Assembly: GCA_020850535.1 (NCBI GenBank)
Contig: JADZEM010000063.1
Span: 1 to 64,000 of the forward strand
DNA: 64,000 bases
Origin: Chloroflexota bacterium
Lineage (GTDB): Bacteria > Chloroflexota > UBA6077 > JACCZL01
Direction: 5' to 3'
Under the pieces are notes generated by a model that was not told where the DNA came from, did not search any database, and saw nothing but the letters and a program-made list of their open reading frames with translations. Every line of letters starts with the position of its first letter. Positions within the stretch are counted from its first letter, which is position 1. Both the position numbers and the translations under genes were made by a program. Of this stretch, positions 16,393-56,564 are shown piece after piece.

Positions 16393-16432
16393 CTTGCCTC
16401 TCCCTTGAAGCGAGGTTTCGGTTCCTGCCGTG

Positions 16433-16475: not shown

Positions 16476-16541
16476 ACTCTGACGAGGAGGTCTGCCGTGA
16501 GTTGACGGTTCCTGTCGGGGCTGGCGTGGCCAGCGCGGCGT

Positions 16542-17489: not shown

Positions 17490-17505
17490 CGTCGCGCAGC
17501 CTCCA

Positions 17506-36325: not shown

Positions 36326-37234
36326 TCACGCTCGTCTCATCTCCATCACCACGTAGCCCCCGATTCCGGCCGCAACCGTCAATGCCCCAACCGCCACGAA
36401 CAGGTTGGGTGTCCGGCCGGTCAGTAGGCCGAGCAGCACAAACCAGAGCGGCTGCGTGAATGCGAGTGGCGCCACCGTGCTGGCCGGCGCGACGCTCAGG
36501 GCATAGTCGAGCATCCAGAGCAGGACGAATCCCATGCTGCCGACCCCCATCATGGCGATCAGTGCGTCGAAGTCTGGCGCGCGCCAGAAGAACGGAAGCA
36601 CCGCGCTGAGCACCACAAACACAACCGCCGCCGTGTAGAAGAGGTTGGTCGTCGGGGCTTCGTTACGCAGGATGCGGGTGCAGATCACATACACGCCGAA
36701 CGAGAGCGCCATGCCGAGCGCCAGCAGCAGCGGCCGCCAGAAGAGGTGAGACGCGGGCTGCAGGATGAGGACGACACCGACAAATGCGATCGCGGCGCAC
36801 AGATACTGGCCCGGCTGCACCCGTTCTCCAAGCACCAGCCCCCCGAACAACACGACCAGCAACGGCGAGATCCAGAAGACAGCGAGAATGTCGTTCGGGG
36901 GCAGCAGCCTGGCGGCGAACAGGAAGCAGGCTGGCATCCCAAGCATCAGGGCGCCACGTCCAAGTTGCAGCCACAATCTGGACGTTCGCACCAACGCTGT
37001 CCGCCTTCGTGGGGCGAACACCACGAGCATGAGGGCCAGGTGTGTGCCGTACCGAGCCCAGACAACCTCAAAGCCGGAGTAGCCTGCCAGCGCCTGCGCC
37101 GCGCCGACCTCAATGAACGCCCAGATCGCCATGGCAAGACACATGGCGCCGCGCGCGAGCCAGAGCCGCCGCGAATCGGGAGACACGCCCGCAGGCTGGT
37201 CGGCTGTCACCGCTGACATCGCGGGGAGACTCAT
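36326..37234 (-). CDS. EamA/DMT-family transporter
   Basis: Integral membrane protein of 302 aa with about ten hydrophobic spans arranged as two EamA repeats (for example AVFWISPLLVVLFGGLVLGE in the first and LAFTQPLWFVLLGLLTGR in the second). Drug/metabolite transporters of this type export amino acids and small metabolites. The ATG overlaps the stop of the upstream PKS gene as ATGA, so it is translated with the assembly line and is a good candidate for exporting or protecting against the product. It is the last gene of the first minus-strand unit. Confidence 0.85.
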   Translation of the reverse strand: MSLPAMSAVTADQPAGVSPDSRRLWLARGAMCLAMAIWAFIEVGAAQALAGYSGFEVVWARYGTHLALMLVVFAPRRRTALVRTSRLWLQLGRGALMLGMPACFLFAARLLPPNDILAVFWISPLLVVLFGGLVLGERVQPGQYLCAAIAFVGVVLILQPASHLFWRPLLLALGMALSFGVYVICTRILRNEAPTTNLFYTAAVVFVVLSAVLPFFWRAPDFDALIAMMGVGSMGFVLLWMLDYALSVAPASTVAPLAFTQPLWFVLLGLLTGRTPNLFVAVGALTVAAGIGGYVVMEMRRA

Positions 37235-40200
37235 GGCATGCGCGCCAGTCTGGCCGACAGGAGTTCGGCAAGCTCATGCTCGGAGAGATCGTACGGATCC
37301 GTCTCGGCATGCATGGACGTGGTCTCAGCGTCTTTCGCGTGCATCTCCTCGCCAGACCCGCCGGCGTCTGCCTGCGGCAGCAGGTGTGCGACCTTCGTGA
37401 GCAGGACATCCGTCAGCGCGGAGATGTTCGGGTAGTTGAACGTGAGGCTCGTCGGCAGAGGCTGACCGACGGCTTCCTCCAGGCGCGCGCGCAGCTCCAC
37501 CGCCATGAGCGAATCCATGCCGAGGTCAAAAAGCCCCCGGTTCGGATCGATCTCCCGCGTCAGATCGATACGCAGCACCCGCCCCACGGTGCGTGCGACA
37601 AACGCGAGTGCGAGCGGGCGCCGTTCGGACTCTGGGGCCCCAACGAGTCGATCGAGCAACGTCGATACGGCGGATGCTGGCGCCTCCCGAGCGGCGCGCT
37701 TGTCCACGGTCAAGTGCGCCAGGAGGGGCCGCCTTCGGCGGGCCTCATAGACCGGCTTCAACACGCTCCAGTCGATGGACGCGACCGTCGCCTGGCAGCG
37801 GGCAGGATCGGAGAGCAATCCCCCCAGCGCGGACAGCGCCGCGGAGGTCGGCATTGGACGCAGCCCAACAGACCCATAGCTCGACCGCTGCTCGGCAGTC
37901 GTCGCCCGCATCTCCTCCCAGGTCCCCCAGCAGACGCTGAGCGCTGGATACCCCTGTGCTCGACGATAGTGAGCGAACACATTCAGGAATTCGTTCGCTG
38001 CCGCGTAGTGCGCCATGCCGTTGACGCCCAACAACGAGGCCGTGGATGAGAACAGGACGAAGAAGTCGAGATCCAGGGCGCCGGTCAGCTCGTGCAGCAG
38101 CCAGGCGCCTGTCACCTTTGGTCGGAGCATTCGCGACAGGGCGTCCACGGTGAGATCGCGGACCGCGCTGAGATCAAGCGCTGCCGCCGCGTGGATGACG
38201 CCGCGCAGCGGTGGAAGATCGCTGCCGAAGCGGTCGAACAGCGCCACCATATGCGCCCGGTCGGCGACATCCCCCTTGACGACGGTCACCGAGGCCCCCC
38301 GCGCTTCGATCACGCGGATCGCCTCGACCTGCGCATGCGCTCGACTCGTCGGGTCCAGGTCCGCCCAGTCCGAGCGCTCCGGAAGACCAGTTCGAGATTG
38401 CAGCACGAGGTGGCGTGCGCCTTGATCGGCCATCCAACCGGCCAACTTGAGGCCCAGGCCGCCAGGCCCACCCGTGATGAGATAGCTTGCCTGTGCGTCC
38501 CAACGGAGTGGCTGCCCGGCCTGCACGCTGTCCGGCGTCAGCCGCGCCACCAGCCGTCGGCCGCCCCGAATGGCGATCTGGTCCTCGTCGCTCGCCAACA
38601 CGAGCGTCTCGTAGACCGCCCGTGCGGACGTCTGCATCGAGTCCTTGCCGCTGAGGTCGAGCAGCCCGCCCCAGATGTCGGGATGTTCGAGCGCGATCAC
38701 CCGGCCGAAACCCCACAGTGGAGCCTGCGCCACCGCGAGTCCGATGGCCTCGCCGTCGTGGACCGTGAGCGGCTGCGCCTCTCGGGTCACGAGCCAGAGA
38801 GACGACGTGCTGGTACCGGCCATTTGAACCAGTGCCTGCGTCAGCAGCAGCGCGCTCGCGCATCCGAGATCGTTCGCCGACGTACGCGTCTGCTCGTCAA
38901 CATGGTCGCCAGGAGCGATATCAAGGCTCCACAGATGCACCACGCGGCGCGCTTGTCCAGCAGGCAGACCCGTCGCGTTGAGCGCACGCGCATAGTCCGC
39001 TTTCGAGGACGGATCAATCTGTACGCGGCCGGGAGCTAGCTCGGCGTACTGCGCTCCTCGAACGACGATCCGGCACGACTCGCCGCGCGTGGCGATCAGG
39101 GCGGCCAGCGTGTCACCCACACCGCTGTCGTCGGCAAAGATCGTCCAGTGCGGCTTTGGCGTGGCCGGTGCGATGGGAAGGTTTTCGGCGGGCGGTCGCT
39201 GCGCCAGGAGCACCGTCTGTCCGACCCCGATGCCGAGGGATGGGCCGTGCGGAAGCGCCAGGGCTTCGACGAACCCGGCGTCCGCGAGCGTGTCGAGCCA
39301 GCGATCTGGCGCCAAGAGCGGATGGTCTGGCCGCCGATCATGGTCAGCGAACTTCCACCATCCTTCAGTGAGGCCAAAGGTCAGGTCCACCCAGTGCAAC
39401 GGCATCGTTGCTTCGAGGACCAGCAGCAGCCCACCCGGGGCGAGCAGATGCTTTGCGTGCCCCAGCGTGCGCCCGAGATCCTCCGTCGCATGGAGCACAT
39501 TCGCGGCGATGATGATGTCGAACGACTCCGCTGCAAACCCCTGCGGCTCAGGATCACGCTCGGCGTCAAGACGCTGGAAGCGCACGCACGGCGCTTCGGA
39601 GAATCGTGCCTCAGCCTGAGCCAGCAGCGTCGGCGAGATATCGGTGAACACGTACTCGGTCCGATCCACTGGAAGGACCGAGAGCAGGCTCGCTGTCGTC
39701 GCGCCGGTGCCAGCGCCGATCTCCAGTACGCGAAGCCGTCGATCCGCCGGCAGCCCACCGAGGGAGGTTTCGAGGCACGCGCGAAGCAGACGGTGACTGA
39801 ACTGTGCGGACGGCGAGGATTCGTACAGTGGCTGCACAAGTTCGGAGGAGCCATCTGGGAAGAGCAGGTGCAGCGGATCGACATCGCCCCGTAGCACATC
39901 GGCGAGACGCTCGCCGCAACGGATCAGCAGCCGTGCCTCAGACGCCACGCATGGGAAGTCGGCCTCAACGGCGCGCGCCGCGTCACCAGCCGGGCCGGGC
40001 TCAGCGTGACCATCGACACTCCCTGCGGGCATCGTGGCCGACGTGGGCGCGTGACGATCCTGGCGAAGCCAGCCGAGCATGCGGTGGAAGAGGCGTCGGT
40101 GACGGGGCGCCACCCCAAGCGCTTGCGCCGTCATCTCAGGCGCATCGTCGGCCGGGAGCCGCCGCTGCCCGAGCGCCTGGATCGCCTGACGGGCGTACTG

Positions 40201-43200
40201 GACGGCCACCGCCTCAAGCCGAGGCATCGCCGCGAGGAACTCGGCGAGGGCGCCGTCTGCCGAGGCAACGGTGGCAACTTCCTCCAGCCTCGCATCGAGG
40301 CGCTCACGGGATGGGAGCCAGGTAGCCAGCGGCTCAAGCGCACCGTCAACGGCAGCGGCGTCCGCCGGCTCCCAACGCAGCTGATGCAGCCACGCTTTCC
40401 ATGCGCCGCTGGAGGCATGCAGCAGCGCCGCGCGGCTCGCCCGGCGGATCGCAAGCCCTTCGACGATGGCGACTGTGCCTCGGCCGACATCGTACAACCA
40501 GGCGTCGGCTATGAAAGCATCACCACCGGCGAGCGTCGTCGGCCGCAGCTGAATATGGCTGCGAAGTTGCCGGCTCGGCCGGCCCAGGACGCGGAGCCGG
40601 TCGAAACTGACCAGGAGGTACGCGTCCTCCGTCGTCGTGGTGGGAATGGCAGCGCCCATCGCCTGAAGACAGGCGTCGAGCACGGCCGGATGGAGCCAGT
40701 ATGCGCCGGCCTCACCCTCCAGTGACTCCGGCAGGGTGATATCGGCCAGCGCCTCACCCTCGCCTCGCCAGATTCGCTGGATACCACGGAAGGCCGGACC
40801 AAACGCGAGGCCGAGTCCTGCGAGCCGCTCATAGTAGGTGGGGCCGTCGATCTCCTCCTGACACCGCGACTGAATCTCTTCGAGTGGCGTCGGGGGCGGA
40901 ACGGACGCACTGTGCAGGTCGCCAGCGGCTCGGCTGATGCGCACGTCAGTATGAAGCTGCCAGGTGTCGCTGCCATCATCCCGGCTGTACACCGCACAGG
41001 CCGTGGCCCCGTCAGGCATCTGCTGGAGCACCGTCTGCACGAGCCGGGGCGCTTCATCCGAAAGGATCAGTGGCTCGCGGATCGTGAAGTTCTCTAGCTG
41101 CAACATCGTCGAGCCGTACTCAGACGCCCCCGCCGCCAGCGCCATCTCGACAAAGGCCGGGGATGGCAGGATGACTGCATCGAACACGCGATGATCCGCC
41201 AGGAACCACGGGCTGTCTGCGCGCATGGCGCGTTCAAACACGGCGCCGCTGATGGCCGGTGAGCGTAGCCGCCCTCCCAGGAGCGGATGCTCATCGCGGG
41301 ATGAGGCCGGCTGTGTGCGCTCGGCCGGCGCCGCGGATGTCTCGATCCAGTAGCGTTCGCGCTGGAACGGATACGTGGGCAGCGCGATCTTCCGTAGCTC
41401 ATAGTCACGGTCAAAGCCGGCCCAGTCGACGGCAACCCCTTCCGCGTACAGCGCGCCCAGTGACGTGAGCAACTGCTCCCAGTCATCGATGCCCCGCCGA
41501 AGAGACGGGAGCCAGACGCCGAAGTCCCCGGAGAACACCTGCTGGCCCAGGCCGGTCAACACCGGCGCGGGTCCGATCTCGACGAAGTGTCGGTACCCTT
41601 GCGCCCGGAGCGTCTGGAGCGCCCGCGCAAACTGGACCGCCTCACGAGCGTGCCGCCGCCAGTACGACGGCGTCCCGAGCTCCTCTCGGACCATATCGCC
41701 GGTCATGCCCGAGACGACATCGATCCCCGGTTCCTGCCAGGTGACGCTCGCCGCGGCGCGCTCGAAGGCATCGAGCATGGGATCCATCAACGGCGAATGC
41801 GAAGCAATCGAGATGGCAAGCTCCCGCACCTCGAGCCCTTGAGCCTGCAACACCGCCAGCGCCGAGCGAAGCGCACCACGCTCGCCGGCAATGGTGACGT
41901 TCTCCAGGCCGTTGACCGCGGCGACCGAAACCTTGCCGCCGATGCCAGCCAGCGCGCGCCGGACTGTTTGCTCATCGGTGCGCACCGATGCCATGGCGCC
42001 TGGCGGGGTCAGCGTCTGCATCAGATGTCCTCGCTCAGCAACCAGACGCAGCCCGTCTTCAAGGCTGAGTGCCCCAGCCACGCATGCCGCTACCAGTTCG
42101 CCTGCGCTGTGGCCGAGCACGGCTGATGGCCTGATTCCCCAGCTTCTCCAGAGCTCGGTCAGTGCGTACTGGACGGCAAAGAGGGCCGGCTGGGTGTACA
42201 TGGTCTGATCGAGCAGACCGGCCGCCGCGTCCATTGACTCCTCGTCAGCGGTCCAGATAATGGAGAGCAGCGGCCGGTCCAGATGTGGCTCCAGGAGCGT
42301 CGCGCACAGGTCCAGCGCACGACGAAACGTGGGCTGCGTCTCGTACAGACGTCGCCCCATGTCTCGATACTGCGCACCTTGAGCCGTGAACAGGAAGGCC
42401 ACATCCGGAGGCATGTTCCCAGAGGGATGCCCGACGATCAGCCCGTCCGACGGGGTTCCCGTGTGCAGCGCCGCCAGCGCGTCACGGACGCCTGCGTGCG
42501 AGGCTGCCACGATGGCCGCTCGATGATCGAAGTCTGATCGCCCGGCGTTGGCAGTGTGCGCGAGATCTGCCAGCGCAACGTCTGGATTGCGCTCGAGAAA
42601 TGTGTGCAACTGCTCGGCCATCGTCCGCAGTGCTGGCTGGGTTCTGGCCGAGAGGCTCACGAGATGGCGCGGACGCTCGACACGGTTGACCCGGACATCC
42701 GATGCGGGGGCCGCCTCAACCACGATGTGGGCGTTCGTACCGCTGAATCCGAACGAGCTGACCCCGGCGATACGTCGTCCCCGCGGGTGGTTCGGCCACT
42801 GCGTCAGCCGATCGACGACGCTGATGCCGAGACGATCCCAGTCGACGTGCGGGCTGGGCGTCTGGAAGTGTAGTTGGCGCGGCAACACCCCCTGCTGAAG
42901 CGAGAGGATCACCTTGATCAACCCGGCGATGCCGGCGGCGGACTCCAGATGCCCCAGATTGGTCTTGACCGACCCGATCAGCAGCGGCCGGTCTTGCGGG
43001 AGGCCACTGCCGATGGCTGCCCCGAGCGCCTGCACTTCGATGGGGTCGCCCAGCGCGGTCCCGGTCCCGTGCGCCTCGACATAGCTCACGTCAGATGGTT
43101 CGACGCCAGCGTCTGCCAGCGCCTGTCGGATGACCGCCACCTGCGATGGGCCGTTCGGTGCCGTGATGCCGTTACTGCGGCCATCCTGGTTCGTCGCCGA

Positions 43201-44097
43201 GCCCCGGATCACCGCCAGGATCGTGTCGCCCTCAGACTCGGCGTCGGCCAGGCGCTTGAGCACCACGAAGCCGCATCCCTCTGAGCGCACAAAGCCATCC
43301 GCTGCCGCGTCAAACGCCTTACAGCGGCCATCTGAGGACATCATGTGCGCGCGCGAGAGCGCGATGGTCGTCGCAGGGGATAGGATGGCGTTCACGCCGC
43401 CGGCCAGGGCCATCCGACAGTCACCGGAACGGAGTCCCTGCACGGCCAGGTGGACCGCGACCAGTGACGACGAGCAGGCCGTGTCAACGGAGATACTCGG
43501 CCCTTGCAACCCGAGTACGTACGACAGCCGGCCCGAGGCGACACTGTAGGCGTTCCCGGTCGCTGCGTAGGTATCGAGCAACTCAGGCTCCTGGGAAAGG
43601 AGCGTCCGGCCGTAGTCGCCATTGCAGATGCCCAGGAAGACACCCGTCGCGGAGCCATGCAGCCGGTCGGGCGCATACCCGGCGTGCTCGAGCGCCTCCC
43701 ACCCGACTTCGAGGGTGAGCCGCTGCTGCGGATCGAGGCTACGCGCCTCGCGTGGCGACATCCCGAAGAACTCGGCGTCGAACCGGTCCACGTTCGTCAG
43801 GAAGCCACCCCACCGGCTCGCCACCTTTCCCGGCGCGTCCGGATTCGGATCGAAAAGTGCATCGGCATCCCAGCGCGAGCGTGGCGTCTCTTCGATGGCG
43901 TCCCGCCCTTCGGCCAGGAGATCCCAGAATTGCGCCGGACCGTGCACGCCCCCGGGGAACCGGCAGCCGAGGCCGATCACCGCGATCGGCTCCGGCTGGC
44001 TCGGCTTGCCAGCCCCCAGCTTGGCCTGAAGGTCCAGCACCAGAAGCGCCAGACGGTTCGGCGAAAGCCTGGTCAACCGCTCGTACAGACTACTCAT
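37231..44097 (-). CDS. Type I PKS module KS-AT-DH(degenerate)-cMT-KR-ACP
   Basis: Module of 2288 aa (M4). KS is intact (DTACSSS, Cys208). AT has GHSAG (~665) and IASH (~765) instead of HAFH, which points to methylmalonyl-CoA or another branched extender. The DH motif reads [10 protein letters not shown] (~969), with the conserved Gly replaced by Asp, though the second Asp (DACLQ, ~1141) is kept. A C-methyltransferase follows ([10 protein letters not shown], ~1462; NVLHAT). KR has GGPGGLG (~1877) and Tyr ~2027 (HYAAANEF) but no LDD motif. There is no ER. ACP Ser ~2194 ([10 protein letters not shown]). Methylmalonyl plus methylation would give a quaternary carbon that cannot be dehydrated, matching the altered DH; a beta-hydroxy gem-dimethyl unit is predicted. 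Start overlaps the upstream stop (ATGA). Confidence 0.95.
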
Positions 44098-47000
44098 CGG
44101 TCGCGCTCCAGCATCCGCTTCACGCCCAGACGTTCGACCTCGTCCTCGGAGAGGTCTTCGAGCGCCGCGAGCAAGACCTCTATCGCCCGTCCATCGTCCA
44201 CATCAGAACCGGTGTCGCTCGGCAGATCGTCGCCGAGAAGGAACTCACGACCGGGCAGCGTCGAAGCGTCCGGCAGCCGGGAGGCGGCCATCTGCAGGAG
44301 CGGGATGCTGGCCGCGAGGTAGTCCGTCAGCGCCTCGCTGGTCGGGTGATCGAAAACGAGGGTGGCGGGGAGCGCACGATCCTCACCAAGCCCATGGGCC
44401 AGAACGTTGCGCAGCTCGACGGCCATCAGAGAGTCCAACCCAAGTTCATGGAGCGGCACACGCTCGCCGACTTGCTCAGGCCGCAGTCCCAGGATGCGAG
44501 CGCACTGCTCCTGCACGTAGGCAAGCAGCACACGCCGTCGGCGCTCCGGCGCCGCCGCTGCAAGGCGGTCGTGAAGATCGCTCGATGGCGCCGGTGCCGT
44601 ATCGGCCACGGCGACTGGCATCTGGACTGCCTGAACTCGACGAAAGAACGGGGGCCGCGGCTGGCTTCCATACCGCTCAAGGAATCGCGGCCAATCGACC
44701 GGCAGCACACCAACCTGCGCCGCTCCGTCCGCGAGCAGACGCTCGAAAGCCGTCAGCCCCTCGCCCGGCGAGATAGTCCCGACGCCACGCTCGGCAAGGC
44801 GCTCACGCACATCAGTGCCGGCTGCCGCCCCGACCTCCGACCAGCCACCCCAGTTGACGCTGGTCGCCGGTAGCCCCAGACCGTGACGATGATGCGCCAG
44901 GGCGTCCAGAAAGGCGTTGGCAGCGACATGATTGCCCTGTCCGGCGGACCCTACCAGCGAGGCCGCCGACGAGAACAGCACGAAGAAGTCGAGCGGCCGT
45001 GACCGCGTTGCGGTATGCAGGAGCCAGCTCCCGCCCACCTTCGGGCTGAGCACGTGCTGGAACCGCTCCCAGGTCTGCTGACCCAGCACGCCATCATGCA
45101 GCACGCCGGCCGAATGCACGACGCCGCGCAGCGGTCGCGTGGGGGTGTGCGCGAGCGTGAGCGCGCGCTCAACATCGGCCTCACAGGAGACATCGCCCTG
45201 GACCACCACGATCTCGGCCCCGGCCCGCGCCAGCCGCGCGATCTCTGCCCGAGCGCTGTCCGTAGGCAGGCTTCTCCCCATGAGCACAAGGCGCTGAGCG
45301 CCCCGTGCGACCAGGAGCTGTGCGACCTCCAGTCCCAGTCCCCGCAGGCCCCCCGTGATCAGGTAGGTGGCGTCTGCGCGGATTGCCGCTCCCGCTGCCG
45401 CAGCGCCTGCGCCCTGACTCAGGACGATCTTTCCGATGTGCCTGGCTTGCGCCATGAAGCGGAAGGCGTCCACGGCCTGATCGAGCGGGAAAGTCTGGGT
45501 CGGCAGTGGCGTCAGGGCTCCCTGCTCCGCCGCGCGCAGCAGATCGACGAGCATCGCGCGGATCACGTGCGGCTGCTCACGCGCTGTCTCACCCCAATCG
45601 ATGATGAAGTACTCGATGCGCCGCCCAAGCTGGCGTAGTTGCTCGGCGGCTACCTGCTCTTGCTTGCCGAGCTCCAGAAACCGGCCGCCGTCGCGCAACA
45701 ACGACAGGCTGAGCGGGATTGCCTCGCCGGTCAGAGCGTTGAGCACCAGATCCACGCCCTGACCGTCCGTAGCCTCGCGGATTTCGTGCGCAAATCCGAG
45801 CGACCGTGAGTCGAACACGTGTCGGACTCCCAGTGCCCTGAGATACCCCCGCTTTTCCACACTGCCCGCCGTGGCGAAGATCTCCACACCGGCTTGCAGC
45901 GCCAGTCGGACGGCAGCCAGCCCGACGCCCCCGGCCGCCGCGTGGATCAGCACTCGCTCGCCGGCCCGCATGTGGCCAAGATGGCTCAGGGCAAACTGGG
46001 CAGTGATGAAGGGGATCAGGAAGCCGGCCGCCTCCGCGAACGTGAGATTGTCCGGCTTCCGCGCGACCATGCTCGCCGGGGCCGTCACAAACGTGCCGAA
46101 AGCCCCAGGCGCCAACGCCACAACGGCGTCGCCCGGTATCAGCCCCTCGACGCCCGCGCCAACCGCGACAACGAACCCAGAGCACTCGCCACCGAGCGGC
46201 CCAGGGTCGCCCGGGTACATGCCGAGCACGTTGAGCACGTCCTTGAAGTTCAGACCAGTCCCCAGGACTTCGATTTCGATCTCACCCGCATCGGGCTGCC
46301 GCCGCGCCGCCGGCGCGAGCCGAAGATTGTCGATGGTTCCGCGTGCGCTGAAGCCGAGACGCACTGGCGTGTCGTTCGGCCGCTCGCGTGTCCGCAGCTC
46401 CGATGCCGGTGGTTCGCGACGTGTCAGACGCGCCACCAGCCGACGGCCAGCGCGCCAGGCCACCTGATCCTCTTCGTCGGGGCGAGTCACCTCGTCAAGG
46501 AGCACCTCAGCACACTGCCTCGACGGGGAATCGTCCAGGTCAATACGGATGGCGCGAAGCTCTGGGTGCTCAAGTGAAATCGTCCATCCCAGTCCCCACA
46601 ACGGCGACTGGCTGACATGAACAACAGGCCGTTCATCCTCCACCTGTGGGACAGCCTGGGCGTTTCGGGTCACGAGCCAGAGGCGTGGAACCTGGGCAAA
46701 CCCAGCCGCGCTGAGCTCCTGTACAAGATGGAGAGCGCTCCGGGAGGAATGTGCAATCGCCCGATCGAGGTCGGCTTCGCTGCTCCGCTCATCCGCGGCG
46801 CTGTCGAGGCTCCAGAGGTGCACCACGCCCGCGAGCGACGGCCCGTGTGACACGCGGATATCGGCCAGCAGCCGGCGAAAGTCAGCGGGCGCCGCCGGGG
46901 CAACTTCAACCCGCTGCCCGCCGTGCGCGCCGTAGGAAGCTCCAGGCACGACAACGGTTACCCGATGTCCATCGGACCGCAACGCCGCGGCCAGGGCATC

Positions 47001-50000
47001 GCCGACGCCGCCCCGATCGGCCAGGATGATCCAGGCACCCGGCTCCCCCTTCGATGATGCCGGCGCGCGCCGAGCGTCCAGCAGCTTCTGCGCCAGCAGC
47101 AGCGCCTGCCGCGGCGCACCGTCCGCCCGGTCAAACGGACCGGACGCGGCTGGCCTGGGCAGCGCCACCGCCTCCTCGAAACCGGCCGCTCCGAGCGCAG
47201 CATGCCACTGTGCGCGATCAAGCAATGGATAGTCGGATCGTAGATGCCGGTCAGTGAATCGCCACCAACCATCGGTCAGACCGAAGGTGATATCGATCCA
47301 GCGCTGTCGCTCTGTAACTTCGAGGAGCGCAAGCAGCCCCCCCGGCCGCAGAAGACGGTGGATGCATCCCAGACTGCGGGCCAGGTCGGCGGTGGCGTGG
47401 ACGGCGTTTGCCGAGACGATCACGTCAAACTGGCCGGGCTGAAAACCCTGCTCCTCGGGATCGCGCTCAAGATCCAGGCTCTCGTATCGCACCTGCGGAT
47501 AGGCCCGAAACTTCTCACGCGCCCGGCTCAGGAAGTGCGGCGAAACGTCCGTAAAGGCGTACTCGGTCCGGTCGGCAGGCAGGTGAGGAAGCAGGTGCGC
47601 CGTCGTCCCACCCGTGCCGGCGCCGACCTCCAGAATCCGGATCGTACGGTCGACGGGCGACTGGTTGACGAACCGCGTCACCGCTTCCTGCACCAGCGAG
47701 TTGTAGGCCACGGCCGAGGGCGAATTCAGGTACAGGCTCTCGGCGAGATCGAGCGAGCCGCCCGGGAACAGCACCTGAAGCGGGTCGATCTCGCCACGCA
47801 GAATGCCGGCAAGCTGGCTGCCGCACCGACGCGTCAGCGCGATCTGGCTGGACGTCTCGGGAAACTCGGAGAGCAGGGCCTCACAGGCCCGTGTGGGGTC
47901 ATCAGGTGTTTGGGGAGCCCGGAGCACACACCAGCCATCGCCGTCACGCCGAACGACGCCTTCTTCTTCGAGGATCGCCAAGAACCGTTCGAGTAGTTGA
48001 CCGTAACGCCCGTCGATCCGTAGTTGCGTCGCCAGCGCGTCCGTGGCAAAACGGTCACCTTCGCGCGCCTTCCAGCCAAGCGCGGACAGCGCTTGAAGGA
48101 TGTACTCGAAGCTGACCTGTTCCAGGCGCAGCACGAACGGCTCGAAGCGCGCCAGGACACATGCTTCGCGCACGGCTGGTGCACGCAGATCGACACCCGA
48201 GGCGATCCTGGGTAGCTCGATGACCGGCGGCGCGGCACGCACGCCGTCGTCCGGAGCTACGTCACGGCCACCGACTTGCCATTGCACCTCGTAGTAGAGA
48301 TCTCGACGATCGTCAGACGCCGGTCCCTCAAGCTTCTCCAGGTGCACGCGTCGCAACTGAAGCTCGCCGATCTCTGCCACCAGGCGGCCATCGTCATCCA
48401 TCAATTCCAGGTCGGCCAGCAGCAGCTCCTGAGATCGAGAGGCCACGGCGCCCTGGCTGCCGTCCCGCAGGCGCGCATGACACCAGATTCGTGCGCCCGG
48501 CTCGCAGTGCAATTGGAATCGTTGAAGCCCCAGCGGCAGATACGCCGTCTGTGGATCGGAGACCGCCGCGGCAAGAACCTGCAATGCAGCATCCAACAAT
48601 GCAGGGTGGACTCCGTACGCACCCCCGTGCTTGGCCGCTGTGGGTAGCTCCAGGAGGCCAAGCGCCGCGCCATCGCCGTACCAGAGCTGCCGCACGCCCT
48701 GGAGGCTCGCACCCAGATCGATGCGGCGCGCTCCAAGTCGGGCGTAGTGATCGGCCGGGTCGAGCGACTGCGGCAGACCGCGCTGGATCTCGGCAGGCGT
48801 GGCACGGTAGCGCCTCGCACGCTCATCGTTCGTGGAGACCGATCGCACGACGCTGGCGGTGGCCTGAAGCTGCCAGCCGTCGTCTTCGTCAGTCGAACCG
48901 TACACGCGGACGACCGCTTGGTCTTGACCATCCGGCTCGATGAGCGTTTGTACGACGCGGACCTCGCCCGGGGTGCAGGTCAGGCGGCGTGGAATCGCCA
49001 GATCCCGCACCAGGTGCGCTCCCGCACCGAAGGCGGCGTCGGCGGCAGCCCGTACCAACTCAATAAAGCCCGCGGCCGGGAGAATCGGAAGTCCGCCAAC
49101 ATGATGATCTCGAAGATACGGCAGCGTCTCACACGCGAGCTCAGCCTCAAATTGGCGCGTCGTCAGCGCAGAGCGCAACTTCCCACCGAGCAGCGGATGC
49201 GTTCCAGCATGAGGGGAGTGCACAGCCGGGCGCGGCTGGGCGGCTGGCAACCAGTGACGTTCCCGCTGAAATGGGTACGTCGGGAAGTCCACGATGCGGC
49301 GAGCGCGACCGCGGTCGAAGCCGGCCCAGTCGACATTGACGCCGAGCGTGTAGAGACGACCGAGACTCTGCAGTATCTGCTGCCATGCATCGCGACCACG
49401 CCGCAGCGACGGCAGGGCGGTGAGCGCGATCTCACCGCCGATGGCCGTCGTCATGCCCGCCAACACCGGATGCGGTCCGATCTCGACGAAGGTGCGATAG
49501 CCCTCGTGCAGCAGTGTCGCCACTCCATCCGCGAACCGAACTGGCTGGCGAGCGTGCTCCCGCCAGTACGCCGGCCGCAGCAGTTCCCCCTTCGCCAGTA
49601 GTCCAGTCAGGTTTGAGACCATCCGGATCTGGGGCGCAGCGAGCGCGATCTCGCCAACTCGGCGTTCGAGCGCGTCGAGCATCGGATCGAGCAGCGGCGA
49701 ATGGAACGCGTGAGACGTCGCCAGCGGGCGCGTGCGGATTCCGTTCGCTTCGAGTTGGCACACAACCGCCTGGACGGCCTCACGGTCGCCAGACAGCACC
49801 ACGTGTTCCGGCCCGTTCATTGCCGCGATGGCAAGGTGATCGGCCGCAACCGCCACCAGCGGTTCGACCTGGGACACCGGCGCGAACACAGCAGCCATCG
49901 TTCCGCCCGCCGGCAACGCCTGCATCAACCGTCCGCGCTCCGCGACCAGGCGCAGCCCATCGTCGAGGGTGAACACGCCAGCCAGGCAGGCGGCCACATA

Positions 50001-52010
50001 CTCCCCGAGACTGTGCCCCAGCAGGGCGCCCGGCTTGATCCCCCAGCTTTCCCAGAGCCGGGCCAGCGCGTACTCAACCGCGAACAGGGCCGGCTGGGCG
50101 TAGGCCGTCCGATCGAGCAGCGCGCCGGCAGGATCGCCCGGCGTCAGGAGTGTGAGCAGCGGACGGTCGAGCTCGCCGGCCAGCGCGTCGGCACACTGAT
50201 CGAGCGTCGCCCGGAACGTAGGCTCAGACTGGTAGAGCTGCCAGCCCATGCCGGCGTATTGCGCTCCTTGTCCGGTAAACAGGAACGCGACCCTCGGCGG
50301 GTCAGCCATCTCGCTCCGGCCCGACGTCAGCACCGGGCTGTCATGGCCGTTGAGATACGCGCGCAGCCCCGAGCCAAGCTCTGAGCGGCTCGTACCGACG
50401 ACGGCGAGCCGCTCGCGCAGATGGGCCCGCCCAGTATTCGCCGTGTAACAGAGATCGCCGAGCCCGCTGTCCGGAGCGGCCTCGACAACGGACGCAACCT
50501 GCGCCACGAGCGCACGGAGCGCCGCGCCGTCCCGCGCAGAGAGCGCCATCACCTGAACGGGCCGCACCGGCGCCGAGGAGGCGTCCCGTGGGGCCGGTGC
50601 TTCTTCCAGCACCACGTGGGCATTCGTTCCACTGAAGCCGAACGAGCTGACGCCAGCAATACGCGGCGATCCACCTGGCGTCCAGACGTCGTGGCCCGTC
50701 TGGACGGCGATCCGCGCCTCGTCCCAGGCAATATGGGGGCTGGGTGTGTTGAAGTGGAGGGTGGCCGGCAGCTCACCATGCTGCAGCATCAGCACCGTCT
50801 TGATCAGACCTGTGATGCCGGCCGCTGCTTCGAGATGCCCGAGATTCGTCTTCGCCGACCCGACACGCAACGGGTTGTCATACGCGCGTCCAGGCCCAAA
50901 CACGTCGCCGAGGGCACCGGCCTCGATGGGGTCGCCCAGCGCCGTGCCAGTCCCATGCGCTTCGACGTACCCGACCTGATGCGGTGAGACACCACCATCC
51001 GCAAGCGCCTGTCGAATGACCGCTACCTGTGACGGGCCGTTGGGGGCCGTCAGGCCGCTGCTGGCCCCGTCCTGATTCAACGCCGAGCCACGGATCACTG
51101 CCAGGACCCGGTTTCCATCTCGGACAGCGTCCGCGAGCCGCTTCAGCACGACAATGCCACAACCCTCGCCCCGCCCGAAGCCGTCCGCGGCAGCATCAAA
51201 CGCCTTGCAGCGGCCATCTGACGCCAACATGTGATACCTGGAGAACGTGATCCCGTTCTCCGGCGAAAGCATCAGGCTGACGCCACCCGCGAGCGCCATG
51301 GCACTCTCGCCGGACCGCAAGCTCTGGCAGGCGAGGTGAACCGCGACAAGGGACGATGAGCAGGCGGTGTCAACCGCGAGGCCAGGCCCTTGCAGCCCGA
51401 GCACGTACGAAACGCGTCCTGCCGCGACACTTTCGGCCATGCCGGAGGCGTAGTAGGCGTTGAGCCCCTCGTGGCCATGGCTCTGGTGATACAGGCGGGC
51501 GTAGTCCACCCCGGTCAGACCGAAGAAGACACCCGTCTTGCTTCCAGACAGTCGATCGGGCGCCAGACCAGCATGCTCGAGCGCCTCCCACGTCACTTCG
51601 AGAAGCAGGCGCTGCTGTGGGTCCATCAGCGCGGCCTCGCGGGGGGCGATACCGAAGAAGCCAGCGTCGAAGCGGTCCACGTTCGAGATGAAGCCGCCCC
51701 ACCGAGTGCTCATCTTGCCCGGGGCATCGGGGTTGGCGTCATAGTAGGCATCGACATCCCAGCGGTCGGCGGGGATCTCAGTGACTGCGTCGACCCCATC
51801 GCAGAGCAGCCGCCAATACTCCGCTGGCCCCATGACGCCGCCAGGCAGCCGGCACCCGATCCCGATCACCGCAATCGGGTCGTGCCGCGCCCGCTCGGCC
51901 TGAGCGAGGCGAGCCTGAAGGTCCTCAATGGCGAGGAAGGCGCGCTTCAACGGTGACAGCGCCAACTCCGGCTGTCCGTCGGTGGGCAGGCCCGGCTGTC
52001 CTTGGTGCAT
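44094..52010 (-). CDS. Type I PKS module KS-AT-DH-cMT-ER-KR-ACP
   Basis: The largest module, 2638 aa (M3). I chose the ATG at 52010 (AGGAG, 8-bp spacing) over an in-frame GTG at 52049. KS Cys217; AT GHSLG (~665) and HAFH (~770) indicate malonyl-CoA; DH HHVGGLPILP (~968) and DAALQ (~1138) look intact; C-methyltransferase EVGAGTGGTT (~1462); ER HAAAGGVGLAA (~2025); KR GGLRGLG (~2222). At the KR catalytic Tyr position the sequence is GQGNHVAANAF (~2360), with His replacing Tyr. ACP Ser ~2527 ([10 protein letters not shown]). If the KR works, the module adds a saturated unit with an alpha-methyl branch; if not, the DH and ER would be idle and a beta-ketone would remain. Confidence 0.95.
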   Translation of the reverse strand: MHQGQPGLPTDGQPELALSPLKRAFLAIEDLQARLAQAERARHDPIAVIGIGCRLPGGVMGPAEYWRLLCDGVDAVTEIPADRWDVDAYYDANPDAPGKMSTRWGGFISNVDRFDAGFFGIAPREAALMDPQQRLLLEVTWEALEHAGLAPDRLSGSKTGVFFGLTGVDYARLYHQSHGHEGLNAYYASGMAESVAAGRVSYVLGLQGPGLAVDTACSSSLVAVHLACQSLRSGESAMALAGGVSLMLSPENGITFSRYHMLASDGRCKAFDAAADGFGRGEGCGIVVLKRLADAVRDGNRVLAVIRGSALNQDGASSGLTAPNGPSQVAVIRQALADGGVSPHQVGYVEAHGTGTALGDPIEAGALGDVFGPGRAYDNPLRVGSAKTNLGHLEAAAGITGLIKTVLMLQHGELPATLHFNTPSPHIAWDEARIAVQTGHDVWTPGGSPRIAGVSSFGFSGTNAHVVLEEAPAPRDASSAPVRPVQVMALSARDGAALRALVAQVASVVEAAPDSGLGDLCYTANTGRAHLRERLAVVGTSRSELGSGLRAYLNGHDSPVLTSGRSEMADPPRVAFLFTGQGAQYAGMGWQLYQSEPTFRATLDQCADALAGELDRPLLTLLTPGDPAGALLDRTAYAQPALFAVEYALARLWESWGIKPGALLGHSLGEYVAACLAGVFTLDDGLRLVAERGRLMQALPAGGTMAAVFAPVSQVEPLVAVAADHLAIAAMNGPEHVVLSGDREAVQAVVCQLEANGIRTRPLATSHAFHSPLLDPMLDALERRVGEIALAAPQIRMVSNLTGLLAKGELLRPAYWREHARQPVRFADGVATLLHEGYRTFVEIGPHPVLAGMTTAIGGEIALTALPSLRRGRDAWQQILQSLGRLYTLGVNVDWAGFDRGRARRIVDFPTYPFQRERHWLPAAQPRPAVHSPHAGTHPLLGGKLRSALTTRQFEAELACETLPYLRDHHVGGLPILPAAGFIELVRAAADAAFGAGAHLVRDLAIPRRLTCTPGEVRVVQTLIEPDGQDQAVVRVYGSTDEDDGWQLQATASVVRSVSTNDERARRYRATPAEIQRGLPQSLDPADHYARLGARRIDLGASLQGVRQLWYGDGAALGLLELPTAAKHGGAYGVHPALLDAALQVLAAAVSDPQTAYLPLGLQRFQLHCEPGARIWCHARLRDGSQGAVASRSQELLLADLELMDDDGRLVAEIGELQLRRVHLEKLEGPASDDRRDLYYEVQWQVGGRDVAPDDGVRAAPPVIELPRIASGVDLRAPAVREACVLARFEPFVLRLEQVSFEYILQALSALGWKAREGDRFATDALATQLRIDGRYGQLLERFLAILEEEGVVRRDGDGWCVLRAPQTPDDPTRACEALLSEFPETSSQIALTRRCGSQLAGILRGEIDPLQVLFPGGSLDLAESLYLNSPSAVAYNSLVQEAVTRFVNQSPVDRTIRILEVGAGTGGTTAHLLPHLPADRTEYAFTDVSPHFLSRAREKFRAYPQVRYESLDLERDPEEQGFQPGQFDVIVSANAVHATADLARSLGCIHRLLRPGGLLALLEVTERQRWIDITFGLTDGWWRFTDRHLRSDYPLLDRAQWHAALGAAGFEEAVALPRPAASGPFDRADGAPRQALLLAQKLLDARRAPASSKGEPGAWIILADRGGVGDALAAALRSDGHRVTVVVPGASYGAHGGQRVEVAPAAPADFRRLLADIRVSHGPSLAGVVHLWSLDSAADERSSEADLDRAIAHSSRSALHLVQELSAAGFAQVPRLWLVTRNAQAVPQVEDERPVVHVSQSPLWGLGWTISLEHPELRAIRIDLDDSPSRQCAEVLLDEVTRPDEEDQVAWRAGRRLVARLTRREPPASELRTRERPNDTPVRLGFSARGTIDNLRLAPAARRQPDAGEIEIEVLGTGLNFKDVLNVLGMYPGDPGPLGGECSGFVVAVGAGVEGLIPGDAVVALAPGAFGTFVTAPASMVARKPDNLTFAEAAGFLIPFITAQFALSHLGHMRAGERVLIHAAAGGVGLAAVRLALQAGVEIFATAGSVEKRGYLRALGVRHVFDSRSLGFAHEIREATDGQGVDLVLNALTGEAIPLSLSLLRDGGRFLELGKQEQVAAEQLRQLGRRIEYFIIDWGETAREQPHVIRAMLVDLLRAAEQGALTPLPTQTFPLDQAVDAFRFMAQARHIGKIVLSQGAGAAAAGAAIRADATYLITGGLRGLGLEVAQLLVARGAQRLVLMGRSLPTDSARAEIARLARAGAEIVVVQGDVSCEADVERALTLAHTPTRPLRGVVHSAGVLHDGVLGQQTWERFQHVLSPKVGGSWLLHTATRSRPLDFFVLFSSAASLVGSAGQGNHVAANAFLDALAHHRHGLGLPATSVNWGGWSEVGAAAGTDVRERLAERGVGTISPGEGLTAFERLLADGAAQVGVLPVDWPRFLERYGSQPRPPFFRRVQAVQMPVAVADTAPAPSSDLHDRLAAAAPERRRRVLLAYVQEQCARILGLRPEQVGERVPLHELGLDSLMAVELRNVLAHGLGEDRALPATLVFDHPTSEALTDYLAASIPLLQMAASRLPDASTLPGREFLLGDDLPSDTGSDVDDGRAIEVLLAALEDLSEDEVERLGVKRMLERDR

Positions 52011-52090
52011 GCAAGCTGCTCCTGGTGGGGCGAGGTCTCGCAGAAACACCGTCTCACATGGTGGTTGCTGCGTTGTACGGATGCAGTGGT

Positions 52091-55000
52091 CTAGAGGTTC
52101 TCAAGCTTTGCCAGCAGCAACGCCTCGACCTCGTCGTCGGAAAGCGAGCCGACGTCGGTCCGACCGGCCGCCATACTGGCCGATCTGTCGGCGGCTCCTT
52201 GTTGCGGGACCGGCGCGGCGTGCGGCGCCGCCAGAGCGCCTCCCAGATACGATGCAATCGCATCGATTGTGGGAAAGTCGAAGACGAGGGTGGCCGGCAG
52301 CCTGCGCTCCAGGCCGAGCATGCGCGTCAGCCGATCGCGCAGCTCAATAGCCATCAGCGAATCGAGCCCGAGTTCCATCAACCCGAGATGCCGGTCGAGC
52401 GGCTGGCTCGGTTCGAGCCGTAGTGTCTGCAACACCTGGGCACGCACTGTCGTGACGAGCTGCTCATGGCGCTCGTCAGGCAGCATCTCCCTGAGGCGCT
52501 GCAGCCCGCCTGATACGGCTGATTCCGCCTGGCTCGCGGCAGATCCCGTTGGGGGTGGCTCGACACGCGCAGTGAGGGGGCCTGGCACGGACGACGCAGG
52601 AGGTTGCAGACGATCTCGGGCTGCAGATGGACACCTCGCCAGGATGACGTGCTGCCCCAAGATCGCAGCCGGCGAGGTCGAGCGAGGAAGCGCAAGAACC
52701 TCGTCGAAACCGGCGGTCCTGAGCGCAGTGTCCCAGCGTTCGGCAGTCAGCAGCGGATGGTTACCGCGCCACGCATCCTCGAATCGCTGCCAGCCTTCGA
52801 TCAGGCCAGTTGTCACGTCCATCCAGCGCGGATGGGTGGTGGTCTCGTAAAGAACCAGCAGGCCACCAGGACTTAGCAGGTCACGCGCATGCGCCAGAGC
52901 CGCGTCGAGATCGCGCGCCGCATGCACCACGTTGGCGCCGACCACCACATCGTAGCTGCCACTCGCGTACCCCTGCTCGGCTGGCACACACTCAAGATCG
53001 TAGCGTCCGTACTGCACAAACCCGTATGCGGCGAACCGCTCCTGGGCACGCGTCAGGAAGAAGTCCGAGACGTCGGTGAACTGGTACTCCGCCGTCCAGC
53101 CATCAAGCGCGGGCAGCAGCGACGCCGTCGTGCCACCCGTGCCGGCGCCGATCTCAAAGACTCGGAGCATCCCGCCGCTGTTCCGGCGAGGCCTGCTCTC
53201 CACTACGGAGCGGACGATGCCGTTGAAGTATCGCGCCAGCGACCACTGCTGATAGATGAAGTCAACCGTCTCGCAGGAGCCAGCGGGGAAGAGGGTCTCA
53301 AGTGAACTCTCGGCCCCGGAGATGACAGCGGCAAGGCTTTGTCCACAGCGGCGCATCCAGTCGAGAACCTGTGGCGCGTCGGCCAGGACGGCGGCGGCCT
53401 CCCGATCGAGGTCGCTCAACGGCGGCGCCGGCAAGGGCTGAAGACAGCGATAGTGCGCCTCGACCTCCACCACCAGCCCATCCTCGACAAGGTGACCAAG
53501 CCACCGCTCGATGAGCGACCGGTACGTCGGGGCTGCGCGACATTGCGCCATCACCTCGTCGAGCGTGAGCGACTCGCCCACCCGGCTGAACAGGCCGAAC
53601 GAACGCAGTGCCTGCACCACGTACGCGGTCGCCAGCCGATCCATCCGCGCCCAGATCTCACTGAAGCGGTCCACATGCAGATCAAGCGGGGCCAGTCCCG
53701 CCTGTCGCTCAGCAGCGGAGACAGTCGCAGTCCACGCAGCGCCTGCCACGGGAGGCTCGTCTGTCGCCTCAGTTCGATGCTGGCCGGCGTCGACGATCCA
53801 GTCTGCCCAGTACCGCTGCCGATCCCAGGGATAGGTGGGCGCGGACGTACGACGACGGGGGTAGTCTCTGTCGAAGCCTTCCCAGTCGAGTGACACACCG
53901 TTGACGTAGAGCGCCCCGACGCTCTCGAGCAGTTGCTCCCAGTCTGCCCGGCCACGGCGCAGCGACGGCGCCCACACACCGCGAGCCTCATGGTCGGCTC
54001 GCTGAACCGTACCGATGAGCACCGGGTGCGGGCCGATCTCAATGAATGCGTCACACCGTTGCGCCAGGACGGTTCGGTAGGCGTCGGCGAATCGGACTGG
54101 CTGACGGAGATGTTGTCCCCAGTAGTCCGGACGGCCGGCTTCTCGTTCCGAAACCAGTTGCCCAGTCATGCTCGAGACGAGCGCGAGACGTGGCGGGCGA
54201 AAGGCCACATCGGCCGCAGCGCGCACGAGGTCGTCCACCACCGGATCCACGAGCGGCGAATGCGAGGCCTGTGCGATGCGCAGGCGGCGCACCTCGATTC
54301 CGGCCGACCTGAGATCGGTGAGAACAGCGTCCAGCGCCGCCACCGGCCCTGAGATCACGGTACTGTCACTCGCATTCACGGCTGCAATCGTCACCTGCCC
54401 CCGGTGCCGCGCAATCGCAGTCGTCACGAGACCTTCGTCGGCGAAGACAGCAGCCATGGCGCCGTGCTGGGGGATTGACTGGAGAAGTCGGCCGCGAGCA
54501 GCCGTTAACCGAAGCCCATCCTCCAGCGAGAACAAGCCCACCACGCAAGCGGCAGCGTACTCGCCAATGCTGTGACCCACGACGACGGTCGGCTCGACAC
54601 CCCACGAGCGCCATAGCTCGGACAGTGCGTACTGCAGCGCGAACAGCGCCGGCTGACCGTACGCCATCTGATCCAACCAGGAGCCATCGCCGTCTGACGG
54701 GTACAGGATCTCGAACAGAGACCGCCCGAGGATCGGCTGAAGCACCGCATCACAGCGTTCGAGAGCGGCCCGAAACGTCGGCTGCGTCTCGAACAGGTGA
54801 TACCCCATCTGAACGTACTGGGCGCCGTGCCCGGTGAACAGGAATGCAACGGAGGGCGGTTCCGGCCGTGCGGTCGTCCCGCGCGCCATGCCCGGTAGTT
54901 CCTGGCCGGCGGTGAATGCGGTCAGCCGCGCGTTGATCTCACCGGCGCTGGAGCCGCTCACCGCGAGCCGGTGCTCGAAGTGACTGCGCCCGGTGGCCGC

Positions 55001-56554
55001 CGTGAAGCAGATATCTGCCAGGCGCGCTGGCGTGGCTTCGACCGCGCCGGGCGACAGGGTGTGCCGGTAGCGCTCCACGAGCGCCTGGAGTGCGGTGTCG
55101 GACTTCGCGGAGAGTGGCAAGATATGGAGCGGACGCTCCCGATCGGCAGGGTCGAGGCCGCTGTCTGGCGCAGCCGCCAGCACGACATGGGTGTTCGTGC
55201 CGCTGAATCCGAACGCGCTGACCGACGCAATACGGCCAGATGGTCCGGCTGGCCAGTGCTGATGGGTCGTCGGCACGGCCAGCGGGAACTGTTCCCATGG
55301 AATCAAGGGATTCGGCGTCGAAAAGTGCAGATTCGGCGGAATCTCGCCATGCCGCAGCACGAGCACGGCCTTCAGCAGGCCGGCGACGCCCGCCGCAGCC
55401 TCGAGATGACCGATGTTCGTCTTCGCCGCCCCCAGCATGAGCACCTGATCGGCGGATCGCCCCCGGCAGAGCACCTCGCCAAGCGCCTGCACCTCGATGG
55501 GATCGCCGAGCGAGGTGCCCGTGCCATGCGTCTCCACGTACCCAACATGCTCGGGAGCGACGCCAGCATCCGCGAGCGCCTCGCGGATGACCGACACCTG
55601 CGATGGTCCGTTCGGCGCTGTCAGACCGTTGCTCCGGCCATCCTGGTTGATCGCTGATCCCCGAACAACAGCAAGGATGCGGTCACGATTCGCCAGCGCG
55701 TCTGAGAGGCGCTTCAGGACAACGACGCCGCACCCTTCTCCGCGCACGTAGCCGTCGGCACGGGCATCGAAGGTCTTACACCGCCCATCCACCGCCATCA
55801 TCTGTGCCTTCGAGAAGGTGACGTTGATCTCTGGTGAGAGGATCAGGTTCACGCCGCCGGCCAGAACCAGGTCACACTCGCGAGCGCGAAGGCTCTGACA
55901 GGCCAGGTGCACCGCGGTCAGCGAGGACGAGCAGGCGGTATCGACGGTAACGGCTGGCCCCTCGAGGCCGAGCAGATACGCGATGCGGCCGGCCGCCACG
56001 CTCGGTGCATTGCCCGTCGCGAAGTACACGTCGAGACGCCCCGGATCGCGCGCGAGCATCCGTCCATAGTCGCTGTTGCCGAGGCCGATGAAGACGCCGG
56101 CCCTGGCCCCGCTCAGGCGCTCGGCTGACTGCCCGGCGTGCTCCAGCGCCTCCCAGGCCACCTCCAACAGCAGACGCTGCTGTGGGTCCATGCTCGCGGC
56201 CTCGCGCCCGTTGATCCCAAAGAACGATGGCGAGAACACGTCCACCGCATCGAGAAACCCGCCGTGGCGCGTGTACATCCGTCCGGGCGTGACAGGGTCG
56301 GCGTCGTACCACTGGTCGATGTCCCAGCGAGTGGGAGGAACCTCGGTGATGGCGTCCCGGCCAGACCGCAGCAGATCCCAGTACGATTCGAGATCGTGGA
56401 CGCCACCCGGAAGACGTAGGCCCGCGCCGACGATGGCGATCGGCTCGGTGCGCTGTTGCTCGATCTTGCCAAGACGGGCACGCAGCTCGCGAATCTCCAG
56501 GATCGCACGCTTCATCGGAGTCAACTGGTCGGCGCTGTCGATGATCGGTTGCAC
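52091..56554 (-). CDS. Type I PKS module KS-AT-cMT-ACP (no reductive domains)
   Basis: Non-reducing module of about 1487 aa (M2). The start is probably the GTG at 56554, 10 bp after the upstream stop and preceded by AGGA; longer in-frame readings lie inside the upstream gene. KS Cys208 (DTACSSS) and HGTGT are intact. AT has GHSIG (~661) but QASH (~764) instead of HAFH, again methylmalonyl-like. A C-methyltransferase (EIGAGTGGTT, ~1135; ANVVHA) follows directly, then ACP (GLDSLMAIEL, ~1399). No DH, ER or KR is present and there is no room for them. The module should leave a beta-ketone next to a methylated, possibly gem-dimethyl, carbon. The ~80 bp gap to the next gene is one of the few non-overlapping junctions in the cluster. 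Confidence 0.94.
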   Translation of the reverse strand: MQPIIDSADQLTPMKRAILEIRELRARLGKIEQQRTEPIAIVGAGLRLPGGVHDLESYWDLLRSGRDAITEVPPTRWDIDQWYDADPVTPGRMYTRHGGFLDAVDVFSPSFFGINGREAASMDPQQRLLLEVAWEALEHAGQSAERLSGARAGVFIGLGNSDYGRMLARDPGRLDVYFATGNAPSVAAGRIAYLLGLEGPAVTVDTACSSSLTAVHLACQSLRARECDLVLAGGVNLILSPEINVTFSKAQMMAVDGRCKTFDARADGYVRGEGCGVVVLKRLSDALANRDRILAVVRGSAINQDGRSNGLTAPNGPSQVSVIREALADAGVAPEHVGYVETHGTGTSLGDPIEVQALGEVLCRGRSADQVLMLGAAKTNIGHLEAAAGVAGLLKAVLVLRHGEIPPNLHFSTPNPLIPWEQFPLAVPTTHQHWPAGPSGRIASVSAFGFSGTNTHVVLAAAPDSGLDPADRERPLHILPLSAKSDTALQALVERYRHTLSPGAVEATPARLADICFTAATGRSHFEHRLAVSGSSAGEINARLTAFTAGQELPGMARGTTARPEPPSVAFLFTGHGAQYVQMGYHLFETQPTFRAALERCDAVLQPILGRSLFEILYPSDGDGSWLDQMAYGQPALFALQYALSELWRSWGVEPTVVVGHSIGEYAAACVVGLFSLEDGLRLTAARGRLLQSIPQHGAMAAVFADEGLVTTAIARHRGQVTIAAVNASDSTVISGPVAALDAVLTDLRSAGIEVRRLRIAQASHSPLVDPVVDDLVRAAADVAFRPPRLALVSSMTGQLVSEREAGRPDYWGQHLRQPVRFADAYRTVLAQRCDAFIEIGPHPVLIGTVQRADHEARGVWAPSLRRGRADWEQLLESVGALYVNGVSLDWEGFDRDYPRRRTSAPTYPWDRQRYWADWIVDAGQHRTEATDEPPVAGAAWTATVSAAERQAGLAPLDLHVDRFSEIWARMDRLATAYVVQALRSFGLFSRVGESLTLDEVMAQCRAAPTYRSLIERWLGHLVEDGLVVEVEAHYRCLQPLPAPPLSDLDREAAAVLADAPQVLDWMRRCGQSLAAVISGAESSLETLFPAGSCETVDFIYQQWSLARYFNGIVRSVVESRPRRNSGGMLRVFEIGAGTGGTTASLLPALDGWTAEYQFTDVSDFFLTRAQERFAAYGFVQYGRYDLECVPAEQGYASGSYDVVVGANVVHAARDLDAALAHARDLLSPGGLLVLYETTTHPRWMDVTTGLIEGWQRFEDAWRGNHPLLTAERWDTALRTAGFDEVLALPRSTSPAAILGQHVILARCPSAARDRLQPPASSVPGPLTARVEPPPTGSAASQAESAVSGGLQRLREMLPDERHEQLVTTVRAQVLQTLRLEPSQPLDRHLGLMELGLDSLMAIELRDRLTRMLGLERRLPATLVFDFPTIDAIASYLGGALAAPHAAPVPQQGAADRSASMAAGRTDVGSLSDDEVEALLLAKLENL

Positions 56555-56564
56555 GCTTCCGTTC

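Follow-up and report, generated by a model that had tools for sequence, protein, structure and literature searches.

Organization of the polyketide synthase cluster

The window analysed here is a stretch of 64,000 nucleotides from contig JADZEM010000063.1, part of the 7.65-Mb draft genome of a Chloroflexota bacterium (GCA_020850535.1). Its minus strand carries a polyketide synthase (PKS) cluster in the order M0, M1, M2, M3, M4, an EamA transporter, M5, a nonribosomal peptide synthetase (NRPS) and two hydrolases (Table 1). This work concerns modules M2 and M4, which combine an altered acyltransferase (AT) motif with a C-methyltransferase (CMT). On balance we think it probable that both build gem-dimethyl carbons from two sources, one methyl group coming from the extender unit and one from S-adenosylmethionine (SAM).

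The window edge cuts the cluster within M0, whose dehydratase (DH) is degenerate and whose AT is of the canonical methylmalonyl type. The longest M2 open reading frame (52091-56698) overlaps M1, and since M1 ends at 56565, translation could plausibly begin with the GTG at 56554. M2 has no ketoreductase (KR), DH or enoylreductase (ER), as an earlier preliminary description of this DNA had stated.

Table 1. Features of the PKS cluster in the window, with the domains under discussion
Feature	Position	Strand	Remarks
M0 (3' end), KS-AT-pseudoDH-KR-ACP	63227-64000	-	AT motifs VASH, GHSMG; continues outside the window at L014:3228-9041
M1, KS-AT-DH-ER-KR-ACP	56565-63230	-	AT motif HAFH
M2, KS-AT-CMT-ACP	52091-56554	-	No KR, DH or ER
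M2 AT	53897-54844	-	GHSIG at 54563-54577, QASH at 54260-54271; malonyl lineage
M2 CMT	52604-53551	-	Catalytic His/Glu and SAM motif intact; signatures YQQWSLARYFN and TGLIEGWQRF; closest structure CurJ CMT
M3, KS-AT-DH-CMT-ER-KR-ACP	44094-52049	-	AT motif HAFH; predicted mono-methylating contrast module
M3 CMT	47070-48017	-	
M4, KS-AT-DH-CMT-KR-ACP	37231-44097	-	
M4 AT	41434-42396	-	GHSAG at 42100-42114, IASH at 41797-41808; nearest solved AT is malonyl CurL (4mz0)
M4 DH	40423-41289	-	HxxxGxxxxP-type motif at 41164-41193 with Gly to Asp; HPAVLD intact; probably not used here
M4 CMT	39178-40095	-	Catalytic residues intact
M4 KR	37912-38490	-	Retains the Tyr, lacks the LDD motif; clusters with the KRs of the M0 (methylmalonyl) modules
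EamA transporter	36326-37234	-	Beside M4 in six homologous loci
Type II thioesterase	35222-36283	+	Strand opposite to the cluster
M5, KS-AT-DH-ER-KR-ACP	28645-35316	-	AT motif HAFH; KS in the clade that follows non-Phe M4 modules
NRPS, C-A-PCP	25199-28648	-	A-domain code DILQLGMVWK, conserved in the family
Two alpha/beta hydrolases	23308-25127	-	Also adjoin the NRPS in G266

Distribution of the AT motif across homologous lines

The preliminary description reported that the malonyl-type motif HAFH is replaced by QASH in M2 and by IASH in M4. Both replacements were recovered in the positions given, as were the other motifs it names, and the ATs of M1, M3 and M5 keep HAFH, with GHSLG as the second signature of the M3 AT. 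A wider set of CMT modules was assembled from 79 loci in named records, found by a scan of 85,000 species for related CMTs. Counting the window and the scan loci, Phe, Tyr or Leu is kept at the Phe position in 71 of the 79 CMT modules with a readable AT and eight differ, while all 50 ER-containing modules of the set keep one of these three residues. The M2 protein used as a query against the genome contigs gave no match; relatives were found with the CMT alignment as query.

The same M0-M5 line is present in seven other genomes (Chloroflexota, Hydrogenophaga, Rhizobacter, a Roseobacteraceae and Polyangiaceae), and fragments of it occur as well. A phylum search with the CMT profile recovered homologous lines with three CMTs in G266, G317 and G336; complete lines were also found in Rhizobacter, Hydrogenophaga, Polyangiaceae and Oceaniovalibus genomes, and partial copies in L024, L096 and L098. 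The assembly line recurs in at least three bacterial phyla and is found in the named strain Rhizobacter sp. Root1238, whose M2 AT reads HAAH and whose M4 AT reads HAFH. The order M0-M1-M2-M3-M4 is kept across lines, with M5 next wherever the contig extends that far, and six of the seven other genomes hold a relative of the NRPS. A phylum scan around the Polyangiaceae genome gave M2-like CMTs above the cut-off in only two genomes, and a plasmid search for related PKSs returned distant cyanobacterial PKSs only.

Across the homologous lines the AT Phe is absent, with Ser or Ala in its place, in all eight M2 modules, in 7 of 11 M4 modules and in none of the 26 M1, M3 and M5 modules. The M2 orthologs read QASH, IASH, IAAH, QAAH, HAAH (twice), FAAH and, in one case, the textbook YASH. 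Taken together, 15 of 19 M2 and M4 ATs are non-Phe (versus 0/26; p = 1e-8 counting modules, a Fisher value that overstates independence since the lines are related).

A safer measure is the number of changes on an AT tree, which was built without the motif columns. Here the M0 ATs group with the methylmalonyl AT3 of DEBS, while every AT of M2 and M4 is placed with CurL among the malonyl ATs. No fewer than six changes are required to account for the non-Phe state, with low support for several inner branches. In G317 the M2 AT (IASH) branches from within the HAFH ATs of M3-M5 of the same line, so the state follows module position and not descent. Judged by this tree, loss of the Phe is a convergent switch at particular module positions. 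A single origin had been considered from a first tree, in which four non-Phe ATs formed one clade, and was rejected when the wider set showed several origins. That the motif has drifted neutrally and without consequence we find hardly credible: its first residue does vary freely (I, Q, H, Y, F, V, L), but the position-specific distribution and the repeated changes on the tree are difficult to reconcile with drift.

Extender choice by the M2 and M4 ATs

A precedent for the Phe-to-Ser change exists in epothilone synthase, where nine residues distinguish AT3, a malonyl domain, from AT4, which takes both extenders. Five of these were tested singly; F310S alone gave AT3 methylmalonyl use (from 0 to 36%), and S310F turned AT4 into a malonyl-only domain (PMC8058987). 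Counting 101 positions back from Ser310 leads to Ala209 in AT4, where AT3 has Ile; by spacing this site matches the x of GHSxG. Epothilone AT4 therefore has, within a malonyl-like AT, the same Ala/Ser pair as M4 in the window (GHSAG and IASH). M2 differs from it by Ile in GHSxG, and the epothilone study concerns extender choice, not methylation by a CMT (PMC8058987).

The Phe-to-Ser change is recurrent and position-specific and has a precedent in epothilone AT4, and on these grounds it probably affects function. The preliminary description had gone further and read it as the mark of a methylmalonyl-type AT, which is too strong a label for domains of the malonyl lineage. Of the residues (Ser, Ala or Gly) that replace the HAFH Phe as a feature of methylmalonyl acceptance, both ATs have Ser; the canonical methylmalonyl-clade features (GHSQ/MG and VDVVQ) occur in the M0 AT alone. 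We infer that the M2 and M4 ATs are likely to accept methylmalonyl, and our claim stops short of exclusivity. Since they belong to the malonyl lineage apart from the motif, they may take either extender, as epothilone AT4 does, and need not be strictly specific for methylmalonyl. The methylmalonyl-CoA supply that the preliminary description proposed to look for is encoded in the genome by a complete gene set, comprising methylmalonyl-CoA mutase (both parts), epimerase and acyl-CoA carboxylase.

Loss of the Phe might instead have relaxed the ATs and led to mixtures of mono- and gem-dimethyl congeners. The promiscuity of epothilone AT4, which results in epothilones C and D, shows how this could happen (PMC8058987). 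Strict retention of the altered motif in all eight M2 modules, together with the co-varying CMT, KR and M5 KS, suggests selection for a defined product, and mixtures as the outcome appear very unlikely to us.

C-methyltransferases and the number of methyl groups

The CMTs of M2, M3 and M4 hold the SAM motif and the catalytic His and Glu of CurJ, and no M2 or M4 module in the alignment has lost a catalytic residue of its CMT. The presence of a CMT in both M2 and M4, noted in the preliminary description, thus stands, and the domains look competent. The M2 CMTs of all lines form one clade (99/92), which also holds a GAGH module and a module of G333 with a VASH motif and an AT of the canonical methylmalonyl clade. 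The latter module (G333:C69, L138) has the architecture AT-CMT-KR-ACP, without DH or ER, and is a candidate for a gem-dimethyl module of the epothilone type.

A gem-dimethyl carbon could also arise if the ATs load malonyl despite their motif and the CMT methylates twice. The CMT of yersiniabactin HMWP1 is reported to place both methyls of a gem-dimethyl group on a malonyl-derived unit. The DisA CMT is likewise described as gem-dimethylating alone (Meinke et al. 2018, as related in PMC10512364). The malonyl lineage of the M2 and M4 ATs fits double methylation, which nevertheless leaves unexplained why the AT Phe was lost repeatedly, in all M2 and most M4 modules, with M3 keeping it; we hold this route to be distinctly improbable.

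Dehydratase and ketoreductase of M4

The Asp that replaces Gly in the M4 DH motif was taken in the preliminary description as the sign of a dead domain. The change alone does not prove inactivation, since the position is commonly filled by Asp, Glu, Asn or other residues, in ER modules too. Asp alone occurs in seven DHs of the CMT-module set, two of them in ER modules (L078 and L088), and is likewise the residue of M5 in G266 and G403, both fully reducing modules. Better evidence comes from the homologous lines. G317, G336 and G403 have no DH in M4; in G400 and L096 the domain is without its Pro, and in G406 both the His and the Pro are gone. The M4 DH is thus absent or broken in 6 of 10 lines, compared with 0 of 27 DHs of M1, M3 and M5 (p = 9e-5, again from lines that are related), which suggests that it is dispensable at its position. 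All three lines in which M4 has no DH keep HAFH in its AT. Loss of the DH therefore does not track the AT motif, and the chain from quaternary carbon to DH decay is no more than a hypothesis. The intact DH motif cited for M3 as a contrast is present in its first part (HHVGGLPILP); the second reads LGASL where other DHs have YGPxF.

The M4 KRs of the non-Phe lines have the Tyr, lack the LDD motif and group with KRs of methylmalonyl modules (support 96). Those of the HAFH lines have His at the Tyr position and group with M3 KRs. The DH losses and the missing LDD together support a retained beta-hydroxyl at M4. His at the catalytic Tyr position of the KR (NHAAAN) was observed in 53 of 81 CMT modules, M3 among them, versus 4 of 30 modules without a CMT; most such KRs sit in fully reducing modules, which are expected to need an active KR.

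These data bear on whether M2 and M4 add a single methyl only (CHMe), either from methylmalonyl with an idle CMT or from malonyl with one methylation, in which case the M4 DH might give an alpha-methyl enoyl product. In 4 of 10 lines the M4 DH has kept its catalytic residues, and HAFH orthologs of M4 exist. Against this, idle CMTs are unlikely because the catalytic residues are intact throughout, one methylation of a malonyl unit gives no reason for the AT change, the B-type LDD motif that usually accompanies dehydration by a DH is missing from the M4 KR, and the DH itself is lost or broken in 6 of 10 lines. We regard a single methyl as unlikely.

Two versions of M4

The KS of M5, which receives the M4 product, falls into two clades according to the M4 AT class across phyla (95/96 and 99/96, four sequences each), and a Chloroflexota-only M5 KS clade was rejected (p-AU 0.005). 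Most simply, M4 would come in two exchangeable units, each running from its AT to the M5 KS, that make different products. We infer that the two differ as gem-dimethyl versus mono-methyl; KR stereochemistry could contribute. More broadly, and as a tentative proposal that we rate at slightly short of even, this may be a widespread and uncharacterised assembly-line family in which gem-dimethylation is set by a repeatedly evolved one-residue switch of a malonyl AT (HAFH to xA[S/A]H) together with a CMT, and in which the AT4-CMT4-KR4-KS5 unit occurs across phyla in a gem-dimethyl and a mono-methyl version. If true, the family offers a natural experiment on how the number of alpha-methyls (zero, one or two) is determined. 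The matched M4 pairs (HAFH versus xA[S/A]H in otherwise homologous lines) and the one-residue convergent AT change make it directly testable; it would yield a sequence rule for predicting gem-dimethyl groups and points to an orphan family of compounds spread over several bacterial phyla.

Several points weigh against gem-dimethylation from two sources. A CMT alone can dimethylate a malonyl-derived unit, so a gem-dimethyl group does not require an AT change, and an AT change is no proof of a gem-dimethyl group. The M2 and M4 AT signatures are otherwise malonyl-like (GHSI/AG, with AYGQ/MYTQ in the place of VDVVQ), and among solved ATs the nearest is the malonyl-type CurL. The F-to-S change alone reached only 36% methylmalonyl in the epothilone AT (PMC8058987), and in other work a motif of the HAFH/YASH type alone usually moved AT specificity in part only. 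HAFH is kept in 4 of 11 M4 orthologs, and the M4 DH in the window retains its catalytic His and Asp. One CMT module (G187:C118, L143) combines a FAAH AT of another clade with a complete DH-ER-KR set, and a module of G266:C41 has a non-Phe AT (MAAH) without a CMT. Finally, block exchange or KR stereochemistry, not methyl number, could underlie the KS5/KR4/AT4 pattern.

With these points considered, gem-dimethylation is well supported at M2 and likely at M4, where the case is weaker because of the HAFH orthologs.

Proposed mechanism, product and known counterparts

In the mechanism we propose for M2 and M4, the AT pocket of malonyl lineage, opened by the Phe-to-Ser change, would load methylmalonyl, probably with some malonyl. 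KS condensation would give an alpha-methyl beta-ketothioester, to which the CMT of the module would add a second methyl from SAM, creating a quaternary alpha carbon. M2 would leave the beta-ketone; in M4 the KR would reduce it to a beta-hydroxyl that is not dehydrated, the DH being redundant there. M3, with a malonyl AT and a CMT, would add a single methyl. Read colinearly, the predicted product is starter-CH(OH)-CHMe-CH2-CH2-CO-CMe2-CH2-CHMe-CH(OH)-CMe2-CH2-CH2-CO-Gly, for which no known compound was matched. The terminal residue follows from the A-domain code DILQLGMVWK, near-identical in five lines, which we take to be glycine-like. As a speculation, the delta-hydroxyls on either side of the M2 ketone could close to a 6,6-spiroketal next to the gem-dimethyl carbon, in the manner of aplysiatoxin.

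The nearest counterpart in logic is module 8 of epothilone synthase (EpoE), in which a methylmalonyl AT and a CMT provide an alpha-methyl from the extender and one methyl from SAM. Its AT (EPOAT8) is listed among those that specifically incorporate methylmalonyl-CoA. M2 and M4 differ in having malonyl-lineage ATs with one motif residue changed, and M2 also in lacking any reductive domain; they may work like the epothilone module without belonging to the canonical methylmalonyl AT lineage. The DisA CMT (6cca) is a sequence relative of the window CMTs and, as in HMWP1, gem-dimethylation there is by the CMT. Both of those CMTs are reported to supply the two methyls, whereas the line in the window has altered ATs and different CMT signatures. 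The closest solved relatives come from curacin biosynthesis, CurJ (5thy) for the CMTs and CurL for the M4 AT. The CurJ CMT mono-methylates, and the CurL AT differs in being HAFH.

Neighbouring genes

Upstream of M0 lie genes for an asparagine-synthase-like amidotransferase, a flippase and a glycosyltransferase. The amidotransferase (L014:9101-11050) and the two hydrolases gave below-cut-off matches to XrtA amidotransferase, hydr1_PEP and hydr2_PEP. These exosortase/PEP-CTERM-type matches look as if the cluster and exopolysaccharide loci had accessory genes in common. The type II thioesterase reading frame overlaps the start of M5, and the overlapping minus-strand frames there look spurious. 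Just outside the PKS cluster, a radical SAM protein is encoded at 12634-13578 (+), near oligopeptide ABC transporter genes (14701-18423). The same genome holds a second PKS locus (G000:C19, 57054-58949 on the minus and 68930-70501 on the plus strand) and an NRPS in L016.

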